64,000 bases of DNA. It comes from Gammaproteobacteria bacterium HGW-Gammaproteobacteria-1 (lineage in GTDB: Bacteria > Pseudomonadota > Gammaproteobacteria > Thiohalomonadales > Thiohalomonadaceae). The notes beneath the pieces are model-generated. The model saw only the letters and a program-made list of their open reading frames with translations. It was not told the DNA's origin and did no database searches. The stretch is taken from assembly GCA_002840095.1 (NCBI GenBank), contig PGZL01000005.1, forward strand, positions 310,001 to 374,000, written 5' to 3'. This document shows positions 1 to 57,090 of the stretch, piece after piece. A program made the translations under genes and the position numbers. Positions within the stretch are counted from its first letter, which is position 1. Every line of letters starts with the position of its first letter.

Positions 1-1299
1 GGGGTCCATCCGCAGGCGCACAAGGAGGATACGGCGGACAAGCCGATCCGCCGCCTGCCGTTCGCCCCGCGCATGATCGTGCCCCTGGCCCAGCATCTGG
101 GCAAGCCGTCGCGCCCCATCGTCCGCGTGGGTGAAGAGGTCGGTCGCGGCCAGCTCATCGCCGAGGCCGACGGCTTCATGTCCGTGCCGCAGCATGCACC
201 CGCCACCGGCGTGGTGGAGGCCATCACCCTGATGCCCAGCGCGCAGGGGCCGCGCGTGCCGTCCATCATCATCAGGGTCTACGAGGCCTCCAACCAGGAA
301 GTGCTGTGGCGCACGCCGCGTGATGTCGCCGCACTGACACCGGAACAAATCGTTCAGGCGGTGCAGGACACCGGCTTGGTGGGCCTGGGCGGTGCCGCCT
401 TCCCCTCCCACGTCAAGCTCAAGGTGCCGGCGGGCGCCGTCATCGACACCCTGCTGGTCAACGGCTGCGAGTGCGAACCTTATCTCACCACCGATCACCG
501 CGTGATGGTGGAACAGGGACGCGACCTGATCCGCGGCACCCAGCTGGCCATGCGCGTGGTCGGCGCGAAGCAGGCGATCATCGGCATAGAAGACAACAAG
601 CCCGATGCCATCGCCGCCATACGCGCCCATCTGCCGGCCGACGGCAGCATCCGCGTCGAGGCGGTGGAAACAAAGTATCCGCAGGGCGCGGAGAAAATGC
701 TGATTTCCTCGCTGCTCGGCCGCGAGGTCCCCTCCGGCGGCCTGCCTGCGCAGATTGGCGTGGTGGTCAACAACGTCGGCACCCTCACCGCCCTGGGCAA
801 GCTGCTGCCGCGCGGCGAAGGGCTCATCGAGCGCGTCATCACCGTGGCCGGTCCCGGCGTGAAGAAGCCGGGCAACTATCTGGTGCCCATCGGCACGCCG
901 CTGCGCTTCCTGCTGGAGTACGTTGGCTTCAACGGCCGGGAGCAGGAGGTGATCCTGGGCGGGCCGATGATGGGCAACGCGGTATCTTCACTGGATGTGC
1001 CGGTCACCAAGGGCAGCTCCGGCGTGCTGGTGCTGTCCAGCAGCGAGATCAGCGCCGAGACCCGCCGCATCCACCCCTGCATCAAGTGCGGCAAGTGCGT
1101 GGCGGCCTGCCCCATGCACCTCAATCCCACCCAGCTTGGCCTGCTCGCGGCCAAGCGCGAGTACGACGCCATGGCGGAGCGCTTCCACCTCAAGGACTGC
1201 ATCGAGTGCGGCTGCTGCAGCTTCGTCTGCCCCTCATCCATTCCCCTGGTGCAGTACTTCCGCATCGCCAAGTCCATCCTGCGCGAGCGAGCGGCATGA
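1..1299 (+). CDS. rsxC: Rnf electron transport complex subunit C (RsxC/RnfC), 5' partial
   Basis: Peripheral NADH-oxidising subunit of the membrane Rnf complex, which couples NADH and ferredoxin redox chemistry to ion transport. The frame is open from base 1 and already reads like the conserved RnfC N-terminus (GVHP...KEDTADKPIRRLP), so the start lies just before the window; the ATG at 73 is internal. A flavin/NADH-binding SLBB-type core is followed by two 4Fe-4S motifs: CIKCGKCVAACP from nt 1078 and CIECGCCSFVCP from nt 1198. The protein ends soon after the second motif, so it lacks the long Ala/Lys-rich tail of the E. coli protein. It overlaps rsxD by ATGA. rsxB would be expected upstream, outside the window. 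Confidence 0.96.
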   Translation, partial: GVHPQAHKEDTADKPIRRLPFAPRMIVPLAQHLGKPSRPIVRVGEEVGRGQLIAEADGFMSVPQHAPATGVVEAITLMPSAQGPRVPSIIIRVYEASNQEVLWRTPRDVAALTPEQIVQAVQDTGLVGLGGAAFPSHVKLKVPAGAVIDTLLVNGCECEPYLTTDHRVMVEQGRDLIRGTQLAMRVVGAKQAIIGIEDNKPDAIAAIRAHLPADGSIRVEAVETKYPQGAEKMLISSLLGREVPSGGLPAQIGVVVNNVGTLTALGKLLPRGEGLIERVITVAGPGVKKPGNYLVPIGTPLRFLLEYVGFNGREQEVILGGPMMGNAVSSLDVPVTKGSSGVLVLSSSEISAETRRIHPCIKCGKCVAACPMHLNPTQLGLLAAKREYDAMAERFHLKDCIECGCCSFVCPSSIPLVQYFRIAKSILRERAA

Positions 1300-2336
1300 A
1301 ACAGCAAATCGAACTGCGCACTTCGCCGCACGTCAAGGCGGCGCATACGGTGGAGCAGATCATGCGCAACGTGGTCTATGCGCTGCTGCCCATCGCCGCC
1401 TTTGCCGTGTGGCAGTTCGGCATCAGCGCCCTGGCCCTGATTCTCGTCGTCACCGCCAGCTGTCTCGGTACGGAATACGCCTTCTCGCGCAGCGCAGGAC
1501 GCGGCAACACCCTGAGCGACTGGAGCGCCGCCATCACCGGCCTGCTGTTGGCCCTGACCCTGCCGCCGGGCTTTCCGCTGTGGATGGGCGCGGTGGCCGG
1601 CTTCATCGCCATCGCCCTGGGCAAGACCCTGTTCGGCGGCCTGGGCTACAACGTATTCAACCCGGCCCTGGTCGGCCGCGCCTTCGTGCAGGCCGCCTTC
1701 CCGGTGGCCATCACCACCTGGACGCCGGCCGGTCTGCCGGGGCGCTTCATGGAGTTCATCCCCTCCACCCTCGCCCTGCCCTTCATGACGCCGGCACCGG
1801 TCGCTGAATGGAGCCGGCAGCAGGTGGACAGCTTCAGCGGCGCCACGCCGCTGGCGCAGTGGAAATTCGAGGGCGTGGTGACCAGCACCAGCGAGCTGTT
1901 CACCGGCATGGTGGCCGGTTCCGCCGGCGAGACCTCGGCCCTGCTGATCCTGCTGTGCGGTGCCTACCTGGCGGCGCGGCGCATGATGGACTGGCGCATC
2001 CCCGCCGCCGTGCTGCTCGGCGCGGTGGTCACCGCCGGCCTGTTCTACCTGGTAAACGACCAGCACTACCCCACGCCGCTGTTCGTGCTGTTCTCCGGCG
2101 GCCTGATGCTGGGTGCGATGTTCATGGCCAGCGACATGGTCGCCTCGCCGGTGACGCCGCTGGGCATCTGGATCTACGGCCTGCTCATCGGCATCGTTAC
2201 CGTCGTCATCCGCTACTTCGGCGGCCTGTCCGAGGGCGTGATGTACGCCATCCTGCTCGGCAACGCATTGTCGCCGCTGATCGAGAATCTGACCCAGCCG
2301 CGCATCTACGGCGCACGCAAGGGGGCCAAACCATGA
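1296..2336 (+). CDS. rsxD: Rnf complex subunit D (RsxD/RnfD)
   Basis: Integral membrane subunit of the Rnf complex carrying a covalently bound FMN. I place the start at the ATG at 1296 (MKQQIELRTSPHVKAAH), which overlaps the rsxC stop by 4 nt and gives 346 residues, normal for NqrB/RnfD. About ten hydrophobic segments are visible. The motif SFSGATPLAQ near the middle holds the threonine that carries FMN in this family. A longer open frame runs upstream through rsxC, but it is only GC-driven openness. Translation is probably coupled to rsxC and to rsxG (ATGA overlap at 2333). Confidence 0.96.
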   Translation: MKQQIELRTSPHVKAAHTVEQIMRNVVYALLPIAAFAVWQFGISALALILVVTASCLGTEYAFSRSAGRGNTLSDWSAAITGLLLALTLPPGFPLWMGAVAGFIAIALGKTLFGGLGYNVFNPALVGRAFVQAAFPVAITTWTPAGLPGRFMEFIPSTLALPFMTPAPVAEWSRQQVDSFSGATPLAQWKFEGVVTSTSELFTGMVAGSAGETSALLILLCGAYLAARRMMDWRIPAAVLLGAVVTAGLFYLVNDQHYPTPLFVLFSGGLMLGAMFMASDMVASPVTPLGIWIYGLLIGIVTVVIRYFGGLSEGVMYAILLGNALSPLIENLTQPRIYGARKGAKP

Positions 2337-3004
2337 GCAGTGTCGCGCCCCTGCCGCCGCAAATCTCCAGCCTGCGCATGATTCAGGTGCTGGGCGGCAT
2401 CGCCATGCTGTCCGGTTTCCTGGTGGTGCTGACCTACCAGCTCACCCTGCCGCGCATCGAGCTGAACCGCCAGCGCGCCATCGAGCGCGCGGTGTTCCAG
2501 GTGCTGCCCGGTGCCACCACGCGGCGCGACTTCCTGGTGGATGACGACGGCGTGCGCCCGGCCGGTGAAGGCGGCAGCGGCACGAAGGTGTACGCTGCCT
2601 ATGACGCCGACGGCAGGCTCAAGGGCATCGCCGCCGAGGCCGGTGCGCGCGGCTACCAGGACATCGTGCGCATCCTCTACGGCTACGACCCGGCCTGCCA
2701 GTGCATCACCGGCTTCGCCGTGCTGCAATCGACGGAAACGCCGGGCCTGGGCGACAAGATCACCAGGGACGCCAAGTTCCTCGCCAATTTCCCGCTGGAC
2801 GCGCGCCTTGCCGCCGACGGCAAACAGCTGGCCAACGCCATCGTCACCGTCAAGCACGGCAGCAAGACGGGGCCCTGGCAGATCGATGCCATCTCCGGCG
2901 CCACCATCACCTCCACCGCAGTGGGCAAGGGCCTGAACAACAGCGCGCAGAACCTGCTGCCGCGCCTGCAACCCCACATCGGAAAACTGGAGGTGCAGCC
3001 ATGA
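2333..3004 (+). CDS. rsxG: Rnf complex subunit G (RsxG/RnfG)
   Basis: Membrane-anchored subunit with a periplasmic FMN domain that passes electrons between Rnf subunits. The 223-residue product starts MSSVAPLPPQ; one transmembrane helix (about residues 18-38) is followed by a soluble FMN_bind domain. Near the C-terminus SGATITSTAVGKGL contains the S-G-A-T motif whose threonine receives FMN from ApbE; no apbE is in the window. The start overlaps the rsxD stop by 4 nt. The stop overlaps an ATG at 3001 (ATGA) that opens a short ORF running into a repeat element, so the normal direct link to rsxE has been interrupted. Confidence 0.96.
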   Translation: MSSVAPLPPQISSLRMIQVLGGIAMLSGFLVVLTYQLTLPRIELNRQRAIERAVFQVLPGATTRRDFLVDDDGVRPAGEGGSGTKVYAAYDADGRLKGIAAEAGARGYQDIVRILYGYDPACQCITGFAVLQSTETPGLGDKITRDAKFLANFPLDARLAADGKQLANAIVTVKHGSKTGPWQIDAISGATITSTAVGKGLNNSAQNLLPRLQPHIGKLEVQP

Positions 3005-3138
3005 CGTTCCAGCTCGACATCAATGTAGGATGGGTAGAGCGCAGCGAAACCCATCACTGCACCCAACCGCAAGGCGATGGGTTTCGCGTGGCTCTACCCA
3101 TCCTACGTTCGCAGCGAGCAATGAAGGTGCAACTCTGA
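3001..3138 (+). CDS. Short ORF reading through a palindromic repeat between rsxG and rsxE
   Basis: A 45-codon frame begins at the ATG overlapping the rsxG stop (ATGA, 3001) and ends with a TGA overlapping the rsxE start (TGATG, 3136-3140). Most of it is translated repeat (the GWVERSETHH type of peptide that such repeats encode), so a protein function is unlikely. What can be seen is that ribosomes leaving rsxG could translate across the repeat and reach rsxE, keeping translational coupling. Whether it is translated is unknown. Confidence 0.3.
   Translation: MTFQLDINVGWVERSETHHCTQPQGDGFRVALPILRSQRAMKVQL
3024..3107. repeat. Palindromic intergenic element, family A copy 1
   Basis: The left arm begins TGTAGGATGGGTAGAGCG and the right arm ends CTCTACCCATCCTACG, with GAAACCCATC / GATGGGTTTC as the inner part. 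About 31 bp of each arm can pair, leaving a short loop. A second copy lies at 57010-57090. It sits inside the rnf operon, between rsxG and rsxE. Confidence 0.85.
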
Positions 3139-3788
3139 TGGCCGGGCGGAAGAGAGACGACACCATCACCGCAGATACCTTCCTCGAAGGCATCTGGCGC
3201 GAGAATCCGGTCTTCGTGATGCTGCTCGGCATGTGTCCGGTACTGGCCGTCACCAACTCGGTGATGAACGCCATCGCCATGGGCCTGGCCACCACCTTCG
3301 TGCTGATTGGTTCCAGCACCCTGGTGTCGCTGCTGCGCCACGTGATCCCCAAGCAGGTGCGCATCGCCACCTACATCGTGATCATCGCCACCTTCGTCAC
3401 CATCGTCGACTACGTCATCCAGGCCATCAGCCTGGACCTGTACAACGCCCTGGGCGCCTTCATCCAGCTCATCGTGGTGAACTGCATCATCCTCGGCCGC
3501 GCCGAGGCCTTCGCCTCGAAGAATCGTCCGCTCAAGGCCGTCGTCAGCGGCCTCGGCATGGGCAGCGGCTTCACCATCGCCCTGCTCTGCCTGGGCAGCG
3601 TGCGCGAACTGCTGGGCAGCGGCACCCTGCTCGGCTTCAGCGTGTTCGGCGCCCAGTTCGAACCCTGGGTGGTGATGATCCTGCCGCCGGGCGGTTTTTT
3701 CGTGCTGGGAGGCTGGCTGCTGCTGTTCAACTGGCTCAGGGAACGCAAGGCCAGCCCGGAAGTGAAGGAGGCGGTTCATGCACGCTGA
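3138..3788 (+). CDS. rsxE: Rnf complex subunit E (RsxE/RnfE)
   Basis: Integral membrane subunit homologous to NqrD. With RnfA it forms the core that binds a 2Fe-2S cluster within the membrane. The start at 3138 (MAGRKRDDTITADTFLEGIW) is chosen because AAGGTG lies 8 nt upstream and upstream in-frame codons belong to the repeat element. The 216 residues are almost all hydrophobic helices. Two conserved cysteines are visible, in GMCPVLAVTNS and VNCIILGRAEAFA, the positions that ligate the cluster with RnfA. The 3' end overlaps rsxA by 11 nt. Confidence 0.95.
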   Translation: MAGRKRDDTITADTFLEGIWRENPVFVMLLGMCPVLAVTNSVMNAIAMGLATTFVLIGSSTLVSLLRHVIPKQVRIATYIVIIATFVTIVDYVIQAISLDLYNALGAFIQLIVVNCIILGRAEAFASKNRPLKAVVSGLGMGSGFTIALLCLGSVRELLGSGTLLGFSVFGAQFEPWVVMILPPGGFFVLGGWLLLFNWLRERKASPEVKEAVHAR

Positions 3789-4359
3789 TTCGCTCACCTA
3801 TATCTTTCTCAACGCCGCCATCGTCAACAATTTCGTGCTGGCGCTGTTTCTCGGCATCTGCCCTTTCCTCGGTGTCTCGGCCAAGTTGAAGACCGCCGTT
3901 TCCATGGGCATCGCCACCATGCTGGTGATGCTGATCAGTTCCATCTGCGCCTACGCCATCAACAACCTGCTGGTGGCCTACGACCTGGAGTTCCTGCGGC
4001 TCATCAGCTACATCGCCGTCATCGCCTCGGCGGTACAGTTGGTGGAGATGAGCATGAAGAAGTTCAGCCCGTCGCTGTTCCGCGCCCTGGGCATCTTCCT
4101 GCCGCTGATTACCACCAACTGCGCCATCCTCGGTCTGGCCCTGTTCCAGACCGCCAAGGAATACGATTTTGTGCAGTCGGTCAGCTACGCCCTGGGCGCC
4201 GGCACCGGCTTCATCCTGGCCCTGGTATTGATGGCCGGCCTGCGCGAAAAACTGGAGCTGGCCGAGGTGCCCGGCATCAGCCAGGGCGCCGCGCTCAGCC
4301 TGATGCTGGCGGGCATCCTGTCGCTGGCCTTCATGGGCTTCGCCGGACTGGGGGCGTGA
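3778..4359 (+). CDS. rsxA: Rnf complex subunit A (RsxA/RnfA)
   Basis: Integral membrane partner of RsxE, homologous to NqrE. The 193-residue length matches the family. Cysteines in LGICPFLGVSAK and TTNCAILGLALF are the expected ligands of the intramembrane 2Fe-2S cluster. The start overlaps the 3' end of rsxE. In E. coli rsxA opens the operon; here it closes the C-D-G-E-A series and is followed directly by a small cysteine-rich ORF. Confidence 0.96.
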   Translation: MHADSLTYIFLNAAIVNNFVLALFLGICPFLGVSAKLKTAVSMGIATMLVMLISSICAYAINNLLVAYDLEFLRLISYIAVIASAVQLVEMSMKKFSPSLFRALGIFLPLITTNCAILGLALFQTAKEYDFVQSVSYALGAGTGFILALVLMAGLREKLELAEVPGISQGAALSLMLAGILSLAFMGFAGLGA

Positions 4360-4361
4360 CC

Positions 4362-4562
4362 ATGGTTTTTCAATTTCTGATTGCCGGCGGTGCTATCCTG
4401 ATGTTGTTGTTGGGATGGATAGCCGTGCAGAAGGTGGCGCGGGCCTTCGCCCGCCGTCACCCCGAGTTCGGTGCCTACCGCGAGGCGGGCGCCGGGTGTG
4501 GAACCGGCAAGTGTGCCTGCGCCAGTGTCGACCACTGTCGCAAACGCGATGTCGAACATTAA
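4362..4562 (+). CDS. Small membrane-anchored cysteine-rich protein, NqrM-like (candidate Rnf Fe-S maturation factor)
   Basis: A 66-residue protein (ATG 4362; an in-frame GTG at 4356 overlaps the rsxA stop). It has one N-terminal transmembrane helix (about residues 3-23), a short basic stretch and a C-terminal cluster C-X4-C-X-C-X5-C followed by RKR. This layout resembles NqrM (DUF539), which has one helix plus a C...CxC...C cluster and is needed to place iron between NqrD and NqrE of Na+-NQR. RnfE and RnfA are the homologues of NqrD and NqrE, and this gene follows rsxA immediately. The maturation role is inferred from architecture and position; the Cys spacing is tighter than in the NqrM I remember. 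Confidence 0.7.
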
Positions 4563-4626: not shown

Positions 4627-7002
4627 GTGGACGAACGCGTGATCTGGTTCGAGTCTCTCGGCATGGACGATGTGGCTCGGGTAGGCGGCAAGAACGCTTC
4701 CCTGGGTGAAATGATTGGGGGCCTCACCGCCGCCGGCGTGCGGGTACCCGATGGCTTCGCCACCACCTCCGCCGCCTTCCGCGAGTTCCTGCGCCACGGC
4801 CACCTGGCGGAACGCATCAACGCCCGCGTCAGCAAGCTCGACATCGACGACGTCGAAGAGCTGGCCCGCGCCGGCGCCGAAATCCGCCAGTGGATCATCG
4901 ACACACCCTTCCCCGACTCGCTCAACGCCGCCATCACCGCCGCCTGGCGCAAGATGGAGGAAAAGGCCGGTGGTGAAGTGGCCGTGGCGGTACGCTCCTC
5001 CGCCACCGCCGAGGATCTGCCCGACGCCTCCTTCGCCGGCCAGCAGGAAACCTACCTCAACGTACGCGGCCTGGACAACGTGTTGACCGCCATCCACCAC
5101 GTCTATGCCTCGCTCTACAACGATCGCGCCATCGCCTACCGCGTGCACCACAACTTCGAGCATCACGAAGTGGCGCTGTCCGCCGGCATCCAGCGCATGG
5201 CCCGCTCCGACGTCGGTGCCGCCGGCGTGATGTTCACCCTGGACACCGAGTCCGGCTTCCGTGACGCCGTGTTCATCACCGGCGCCTACGGCCTGGGCGA
5301 GACCGTGGTACAGGGTGCGGTGAACCCGGACGAGTTCTACGTCTACAAGCCCGCCCTTGCCGCCGGCAGGCACGCCATCCTCAGCCGCAAGCTGGGCAGC
5401 AAGGCCATCAAGATGATCTACGGCGACAGCGAAGCCCACGGCAAGACCACCAAGACGGTGGACGTGGCCGAGGCCGAACGCCAGCGCTTCTGCCTCACCG
5501 ACGAGCAGTTGCTCGACCTCGCCCGTCAGGCGGTGATCATCGAGAAGCACTACGGCCGCCCCATGGACATCGAATGGGCACTGGACGGTACCGACAACAA
5601 GGTCTACATCGTGCAGGCCCGCCCGGAGACGGTGAAGAGCCGCAGCAACGGCCAGATGATCGAACGCTACCGCCTGAAGGAAAAGGGCGAGGTGCTGGTC
5701 GAGGGCCGCGCCATCGGTCAGCGCATCGGCGCCGGTCCGGCCCGCATCATCATGGACATCTCGCAGATGAGCTCGGTGAAGCCCGGCGACGTGCTGATCA
5801 CCGACATGACCGACCCGGACTGGGAACCGATCATGAAGCGCGCCTCCGCCATCGTCACCAACCGCGGCGGCCGTACCTGTCATGCGGCGATCATCGCCCG
5901 CGAGCTGGGCATTCCGGCCGTGGTCGGCTGCGGTGATGCCACCAAGCAGGTCAAGGACGGCGACGAGGTCACCGTGTCCTGCGCCGAAGGCGACACCGGC
6001 CACATCTACAAGGGCAAGCTGGACTTCGAGGTACAGCGCGCCGACGCCGGCAAGATGCCGGACCTGCCGGTGAAGATCATGATGAACATCGGCAACCCGG
6101 GCCACGCCTTCGAGTTCGCCAACATCCCCAACGCCGGTATCGGCCTGGCCCGCCTGGAGTTCATCATCAACTCCACCATCGGCGTGCATCCCAAGGCGCT
6201 GCTCGACTTCGACAACCAGAGCGACGAGATCAAGAAGGCCATCGGCAAGCGCATGGCCGGCTACAGCGATCCGGTCGGCTTCTACGTGGAGAAACTGACC
6301 GAAGGCATCGCCACCCTGGCCGCCGCCTTCAATCCCAAGCCGGTGATCGTGCGCATGTCGGACTTCAAGTCCAACGAATACGCCAACTTGCTGGCCGGCG
6401 ACGCCTACGAGCCGCACGAAGAGAATCCGATGATCGGTTTCCGCGGCACCTCGCGTTACCTGTCCAAGGACTTCCGCCCCTGCTTCGAACTGGAGTGCCG
6501 CGCCCTGCGCAAGGTGCGCGACGAAATGGGACTCACCAACGTCGAGGTGATGATTCCCTTCTGCCGCACCCTGGAAGAGGCGGAACAGGTGGTCAAGCTG
6601 CTGGCGGAAAACGGCCTGGAGCGCGGCAAGAACGGCCTGCGCGTGATCATGATGTGCGAGATCCCCTCCAACGCCGTGCTGGCCGACGAGTTCCTCGAAT
6701 ACTTCGACGGCTTCTCCATCGGCTCCAACGACATGACCCAGCTCAGCCTCGGCCTGGACCGCGACTCCGGCCTCATCGCCCACCTGTTCGACGAACGCAA
6801 CCCGGCGGTGAAGAAGCTGCTGAGCATGGCCATCCATGCCGCCAAGGCCAAGGGCAAGTACGTCGGCATCTGCGGCCAGGGCCCCTCCGATTACCCCGAC
6901 CTGGCCGACTGGCTGGTGAAGGAAGGCATCAGCAGCGTGTCGCTCAATCCCGACACCGTGGTCGACACCTGGCTGTACATCGCCAGCCAGCAGGGGAAAT
7001 AA
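4627..7002 (+). CDS. ppsA: Phosphoenolpyruvate synthase
   Basis: Converts pyruvate, ATP and water to PEP, AMP and phosphate, the entry step of gluconeogenesis. I chose the GTG at 4627 because AGGGG lies 7 nt upstream and the resulting 791 residues match the 792 of E. coli; an ATG at 4582 is a fair alternative. N-terminal PEP/pyruvate-binding domain ([12 protein letters not shown], then [20 protein letters not shown]), central phosphohistidine domain with catalytic His in [15 protein letters not shown] (about residue 420), and C-terminal PEP-utilising barrel with IGSNDMTQL and the [10 protein letters not shown] loop. The adjacent ppsR encodes its kinase/phosphorylase. Confidence 0.96.
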
Positions 7003-8231: not shown

Positions 8232-8318
8232 TGGTGCCCGGGACCGGGGTCGAACCGGTACGGTGTTGCCACCGAGGGATTTTAAGTCCCTTGCGTCTAC
8301 CAATTTCGCCACCCGGGC
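8232..8318 (-). tRNA. tRNA-Leu (anticodon TAA)
   Basis: The minus strand folds into an 87-nt leucine tRNA, class II with a long variable arm, and with the 3' CCA encoded. The acceptor begins GCCCGGG, the anticodon loop reads CTTAAAA (anticodon TAA), and the T arm has GGTTCGACC. It is the last of three tRNAs downstream of pgsA, the same order as glyW-cysT-leuZ in E. coli. Confidence 0.96.
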
Positions 8319-8378
8319 ATGGGTGTGACGTACGCGACTCTACCGGGACTGCTGCTACTTCGAGAAAGAGAAATTAAG

Positions 8379-8452
8379 TGGAGGCTGGACCCGGAATCGA
8401 ACCGAGGTACACGGCTTTGCAGGCCGCTGCATAACCACTCTGCCATCCAGCC
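8379..8452 (-). tRNA. tRNA-Cys (anticodon GCA)
   Basis: The 74-nt minus-strand sequence starts GGCTGGATGGCAGAG and ends with an encoded CCA. The anticodon loop is CTGCAAA with anticodon GCA, and the T arm is GGTTCGATTC. It is the middle member of the Gly-Cys-Leu series. Confidence 0.96.
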
Positions 8453-8486
8453 GAAACTGCTGCCAGGCGCTGCCAGCGCCTAAATG

Positions 8487-8518
8487 AAAAACCCCGGGCA
8501 GCTACTTGTCCGGGGTTT
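8487..8518 (-). terminator. Hairpin with T-run between tRNA-Gly and tRNA-Cys
   Basis: On the minus strand CCCCGG pairs with CCGGGG, extended by A-T pairs, and is followed by TTTTTCATTT. It lies directly after tRNA-Gly. A second hairpin (GGCGC...GCGCC, 8466-8480) follows before tRNA-Cys. It looks like an intrinsic terminator or an RNA-processing structure inside a tRNA transcript. Confidence 0.6.
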
Positions 8519-8524
8519 CGGAAT

Positions 8525-8600
<76 letters not shown>

Positions 8601-56927: not shown

Positions 56928-57009
56928 ATATGGATTTTAGCCAAGGGGATGACCGCGGTCACCCCGGCGGAACACGCTGCCACCGGGAACGCACCTGAAG
57001 GCAACTCCG

Positions 57010-57090
57010 CAGGATGGGTAGAGCGCAGCGAAACCCATCGGAAGTAGTGCCGCCCCATGATGGGTTTCGCTACGCTCTACCCATCCTACG
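57010..57090. repeat. Palindromic element, family A copy 2
   Basis: AGGATGGGTAGAGCGCAGCG on the left and CGCTACGCTCTACCCATCCT on the right, with inner GAAACCCATC / GATGGGTTTC. The arms are nearly identical to those at 3024-3107. It lies between the SprA-like and flavin reductase genes. Confidence 0.9.

Follow-up and report, generated by a model that had tools for sequence, protein, structure and literature searches.

A small one-helix cysteine protein encoded after rnfA in one clade of Rnf operons, a candidate accessory in iron or Fe-S cluster handling

The stretch of DNA analysed here, which we call the window, comprises 64,000 nucleotides of Gammaproteobacteria bacterium HGW-Gammaproteobacteria-1 (contig PGZL01000005.1, positions 310,001 to 374,000) and begins inside an Rnf operon that closes with a gene for a small cysteine protein (Table 1). 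Since rnfB and a PFOR-type oxidoreductase gene lie upstream of rnfC in the same genome, outside the window, the complete order is rnfB, PFOR, rnfC-D-G-E-A and the small gene, beyond which lie ppsA and a PSRP gene. RnfA and RnfE were tested by profile, and the names rnfB, PFOR, rnfC, rnfD, rnfG, ppsA and PSRP gene are presumed from general family features. We refer to the gene order (B)-PFOR/KGOR-C-D-G-E-A as A-last and to the order A-B-C-D-G-E as A-first. The ligand cysteines of both subunits are present in the sequence (28 and 115 in RnfA, 33 and 116 in RnfE), in agreement with an earlier note on this DNA. The same note had placed the small gene directly after rsxA; the adjacency stands but the operon type does not, as the gene in question is the rnfA of an rnfB-PFOR-rnfC-D-G-E-A operon and not the leading gene of an rsxA-first one. 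Two further Rnf operons are found in the window genome, both with the order A-B-C-D-G-E, one of them with rnfH and the other with nth. The small gene is absent from both, and the ligand cysteines are present in all three RnfA/RnfE pairs of this genome.

Table 1. Features of the Rnf operon and its downstream neighbour, in window coordinates
Feature	Position	Strand	Basis and remarks
rnfC	1..1299	+	operon context; 5' end lies upstream, outside the window
rnfD	1296..2336	+	operon context and related loci
rnfG	2333..3004	+	place in operon and conservation in related loci
rnfE	3138..3788	+	PF02508, 226.9 bits
rnfA	3778..4359	+	PF02508, 196 bits; ligand cysteines present
small one-helix cysteine protein gene (66 aa)	4362..4562	+	ATG at 4362; translation, conserved family, purifying selection
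membrane helix, residues 2-32	4365..4457	+	AlphaFold2 model; predicted N-out/C-in
conserved tail (predicted cytoplasmic)	4458..4541	+	H-P-E-F-G-x-x-R-E-x-G-x-G-C-G, then C46, C51, C53, C59
ppsA-like phosphoenolpyruvate synthase gene	4627..7002	+	presumed family; start codon uncertain

Two other features of this region were observed. Between rnfG and rnfE there is a near-perfect inverted repeat of 82 bases (3025-3106), which resembles a small palindromic repeat element lying within the operon; RNA folding of 3020-3125 gives -63.2 kcal/mol (z -9.7), and the arms of the repeat recur at 57009-57089 of the window. Just past the ppsA/PSRP pair, three tRNA genes, Leu(taa), Cys(gca) and Gly(gcc), occupy 8232-8600 on the minus strand, and several of the open reading frames listed there are artefacts of these tRNA genes.

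The ATG of the small gene lies 2 nt after rnfA; translation from a GTG at 4356 instead would give 68 residues, with the start overlapping the rnfA stop. Cysteines 46, 51, 53 and 59 form the pattern C-X4-C-X-C-X5-C (translation of 4356-4562), and in the AlphaFold2 model (41 homologues) the helix has a pLDDT of about 89-97 while the tail is loosely predicted. The translation and the modelled helix therefore confirm the anatomy given in the earlier note, that is, 66 residues, one membrane helix and this cysteine pattern. Over 58 homologues, lysine plus arginine residues number 0 before the helix and 2.6 on average after it, and by the positive-inside rule the protein would be oriented N-out/C-in with a cytoplasmic tail. 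In the helix, W19 is invariant and V22-Q23 near-invariant; in the tail, C46 and C59 are invariant, and C51 and C53 reach at least 90% (alignment A3, 41 homologues). Exactly four tail cysteines are found in 55 of the 58 homologues, three in two and five in one, and the main spacing is C-X3-C-X-C-X4/5-C (40/58). Four same-genus sequences differ 34/9/70 times at the three codon positions, with a dN of 0.04-0.07 against a dS of 0.17-0.47. As the differences fall mostly in third positions and dN is low with respect to dS, the small gene is real and under purifying selection; because homologues, moreover, recur beside rnfA, this reading frame is a gene rather than a chance ORF.

The protein belongs to a real family that is unnamed and undescribed. 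No Pfam or NCBIfam family matched the window protein or the 13 members scanned, a PDB sequence search returned nothing relevant and a plasmid collection contained no match. In the same order, 14 of 20 genomes carry the small gene, which lies between rnfA and ppsA in all 13 fully readable loci, and the match in L006, the fourteenth, is flanked by these neighbours as well. The ppsA-like gene that directly follows in the window is a frequent neighbour of the small gene. When 84,980 species genomes were scanned, 58 named loci were obtained, among them one from a near relative, a MAG labelled Thiohalomonas denitrificans whose small protein is 92% identical. Most of these loci belong to Gammaproteobacteria (Thiodiazotropha, tubeworm symbionts, Thiothrix, Sedimenticola, Thiocystis), and others to Rhodoferax, Nitrosomonadales, Opitutales and other Verrucomicrobiota, and two MAGs labelled Hyphomicrobiales. 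The gene is directly 3' of rnfA in 55 of the 58, and PFOR is upstream in all 46 of the rnfA-adjacent loci with a contig long enough. The three exceptions possess an A-last rnfA and have the small gene elsewhere: about 8 kb downstream on the same strand (G385), on a contig other than that of rnfA (G386), or beside ppsA and away from rnfA (G387). Simple hitch-hiking within the operon is weakened as an explanation by these three genomes, which keep the gene away from rnfA.

The distribution follows one clade of Rnf. In the class sample, a small one-helix cysteine protein is encoded after rnfA in 25 of 30 A-last operons, some members being strongly diverged with three core cysteines (alignment A4), and in none of the 22 A-first operons, including the two of the window genome; 18 of these 22 were scanned across most or all of the operon. 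In Verrucomicrobiota, the gene accompanies all seven A-last RnfA (7/7) and none of the A-first RnfA. Together with the named loci, these counts uphold the recurrence beside rnfA on which the earlier note had made its reading depend. The start codon often overlaps the rnfA stop by 4 nt. Furthermore, a maximum-likelihood tree of RnfA (82 rows) separates A-first from A-last by a 100/100 branch, with the small gene in 32 of 37 A-last rows vs 0 of 45 A-first rows; related genomes make these counts non-independent, and for this reason no p-value is given. About four changes on the tree are needed for the A-last rows that lack the gene, which fits a few losses. By profile, no convincing distant copy was found for the five A-last operons without it (L114, L117, L120, L121 and L123), so that either the gene is not absolutely required everywhere or a substitute exists. 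A phylum-wide RnfA search gave no further A-last genome in the sample that it covered. The A-first operons carry the same RnfA/RnfE ligand cysteines and no small gene. Being limited to one Rnf clade, the small protein is not a general Rnf factor: the link to Rnf drawn in the earlier note survives as a close association with A-last Rnf and fails for Rnf as a whole, given the empty A-first rows. The features that recur in the Rnf-linked family are a place directly after an A-last rnfA, one helix with a W at its end and three or four tail cysteines, and the window protein shows all of them.

The surroundings of A-last operons vary. Some contain a different 2-oxoacid oxidoreductase together with sucCD- and mdh-like genes, which replace PFOR and ppsA. 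This second oxidoreductase type accompanies A-last Rnf in L187, L188, L189 and L197, some of which adjoin sucCD- and malate dehydrogenase-like genes, and a reductive-TCA link of Rnf is possible there. In many genomes, the A-last operon is followed not by ppsA but by a gene for an FNR-like protein of about 285 aa (L106, L117, L118, L119, L120, L123, L167, L169, L170 and L198-L202).

What we observe directly is a real gene with a conserved architecture, tied to A-last Rnf and retained also outside the operon. Its position after rnfA, the frequent 4-nt overlap and the restriction to one clade suggest that the product is a partner of RnfA or of RnfA/RnfE, and it probably handles iron or Fe-S clusters for A-last Rnf. 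According to the mechanism that we propose, the protein would be an accessory of a single Rnf clade (B - 2-oxoacid:ferredoxin oxidoreductase - C-D-G-E-A), translated right after RnfA; its helix would serve as an inner-membrane anchor, the tail presumably lying in the cytoplasm. The tail cysteines and the HPEFGPxREEGGGCG segment may be the binding site for iron or for a labile Fe-S cluster, which would be delivered to the intramembrane [2Fe-2S] site common to RnfA and RnfE or used in the repair of this site. The protein would then be to this Rnf what NqrM is to Na+-NQR, and perhaps what RseC is to Rsx. We give a little under an even chance to the protein being an A-last-Rnf accessory whose cargo, iron or a labile Fe-S cluster, serves to build or mend the RnfA/RnfE [2Fe-2S] site; delivery or repair of the [2Fe-2S] cluster is the most economical reading, at roughly even odds. 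More tentatively, the family could be an undescribed Rnf-specific Fe-S maturation family with no detectable sequence relationship to NqrM, serving the clade linked to 2-oxoacid oxidoreductases and replacing RseC where the latter is absent. The literature that we searched contained no named Rnf maturation factor.

Two other readings are live rivals to cluster delivery or repair. In the first, which we consider unlikely, the protein would be a small permanent subunit of A-last Rnf with an Fe-S or zinc site of its own, wiring or docking electron flow among ferredoxin/PFOR, RnfB and the RnfA/RnfE cluster. The strict co-occurrence with the PFOR-linked operon and the four tail cysteines of 55 out of 58 homologues are consistent with a subunit, and the strong conservation of HPEFGPxREEGGGCG suggests a fixed interface. 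However, the core cysteines number only three in the diverged forms, some A-last operons do without the small gene, and the A-last operons of other genomes encode a full-length RnfB with its N-terminal helix and cysteine domain.

The second rival comes from RseC. In E. coli, Rsx depends on RseC for its function, and RseC interacts with both RsxB and RsxD; in the isolated domain of RseC its three conserved cysteines hold an Fe-S cluster that is sensitive to oxygen, and reduction of SoxR by Rsx requires at least two of the three (PMC11729352). Autotrophy in C. ljungdahlii, itself Rnf-dependent, requires rseC; deletion of this gene lowers rnf transcripts, and the authors favour a regulatory role (PMC9124969). 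None of the 13 members matched PF04246. The tails of the diverged members align with the N-terminal CX2CX5C of RseC (KPGCGACASKGSCSTS vs KSACGSCASAEGCGTS, alignment A4) with a score of 27.8. Shuffles reached at most 14.4, or 21.5 when the cysteine columns were fixed, and the N-terminal part of RnfB, used as a control, scored 16.2. The window-type tail scored 14.3 against RseC, which is not beyond chance (shuffle 95% 14.2, maximum 15.7), and did not match the tail of the diverged form (12.7 vs 14.5), while the full-length profiles of the window-type and diverged forms scored 64.7 vs a shuffle maximum of 26.7. As their tails fail to match, the two forms are linked solely by the full-length profile and by position. 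By the match of the diverged members, RseC is a better sequence lead than NqrM. It is present in the window genome, and was unmatched at E 0.01 in eight genomes with A-last Rnf and the small gene (G392, G389, G101, G415, G507, G578, G485 and G388). In G349 (L195), which has an A-last Rnf, profiles detected neither the small gene nor RseC (the latter at E 0.01), and this genome offers a natural test of the need for any such factor.

On this basis, the small protein could be an RseC-type accessory or regulator, its cysteines sensing redox state or iron and controlling Rnf activity or expression with no cluster building. We find this improbable: the RseC-like CX2CX5C of the diverged members, the lowered rnf transcripts of the C. 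ljungdahlii mutant (PMC9124969) and the eight genomes with no RseC match speak for it, but the protein has 66 residues and no apparent DNA-binding segment, its window-type tail resembles RseC no better than chance allows, and the window genome encodes both proteins.

NqrM is the factor named for placing a buried [2Fe-2S] cluster, and it belongs to NQR. As a reference we aligned ten proteins of the same class taken with PF04400 (family cut-off, 22 bits). Neither the window protein nor any of the 13 members matched PF04400, and NqrM was not found in the window genome with this profile. With hhalign, the full-length comparison scored 20.3 against shuffles that kept the helix and tail segments apart (median 16.2, 95% 25.0, maximum 30.0), and the alignment spans only the hydrophobic helix; the tails alone gave 12.2 vs 14.8, also within the shuffles. 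The NqrM signature GSCGG(L/I) and the cysteine spacing that follows it are absent from the family. With scores inside the shuffles and no GSCGG, the likeness to NqrM is one of architecture and genomic place, and common descent is unsupported; the similarity at profile level that the earlier note had anticipated was not recovered. Scanning 13 members against Pfam and NCBIfam, and running hhalign with segment-preserving shuffles, led us to reject NqrM homology. A true but divergent NqrM (DUF539) recruited to Rnf, to which the shared size, single N-terminal helix, C-in orientation, four cysteines and place at the end of a homologous operon would point, is in our view very improbable. A mini-RnfB, in which the small protein would replace the membrane/cysteine module of RnfB, is weakened by the full-length RnfB encoded in A-last operons of other genomes.

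The family offers a concrete, small and clade-specific candidate for cluster placement in RnfA/RnfE, and natural controls are at hand in the A-last operons that lack the gene beside those that have it, in the A-first operons that share a genome with them, and in the contrast between genomes with RseC and genomes lacking it. If the protein is a maturation factor, the small gene would be needed to produce A-last Rnf in other hosts. The A-last clade is linked to ferredoxin oxidoreductases of the pyruvate/2-oxoglutarate type in sulfur-oxidising bacteria and animal symbionts, and, judging from the gene neighbourhood, A-last Rnf may supply reduced ferredoxin for carbon assimilation.

Compared with known systems, the small protein resembles NqrM in having 60-80 aa, with a cysteine tail (predicted cytoplasmic) after a single N-terminal helix, and in being encoded at the end of the operon for a homologous complex. 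Unlike NqrM, its signature is HPEFGPxREEGGGCG instead of GSCGG, with another cysteine spacing, and its gene adjoins rnfA whereas that of NqrM adjoins nqr/apbE. A review states that NqrM is seemingly required to insert the intramembrane [2Fe-2S] cluster of NQR (PMC12174285). RnfF of Rhodobacter capsulatus, an RseC-ApbE relative, contains the motifs CX2CX5C and CX3CXCX2C (PMC11729352); the second of these, known to us from the published motif only, resembles the main spacing C-X3-C-X-C-X4/5-C found here. RseC itself, with about 150 aa, two helices, an N-terminal cysteine domain and a cytoplasmic domain at the C-terminus, differs from this protein of 66 aa and one helix. Like RseC/MucC (PF04246), however, it would be a membrane protein with a cytoplasmic cysteine motif, the CX2CX5C being matched by the diverged members, and just as RseC/MucC is functionally tied to Rsx/Rnf, the small gene is tied genomically to A-last Rnf.
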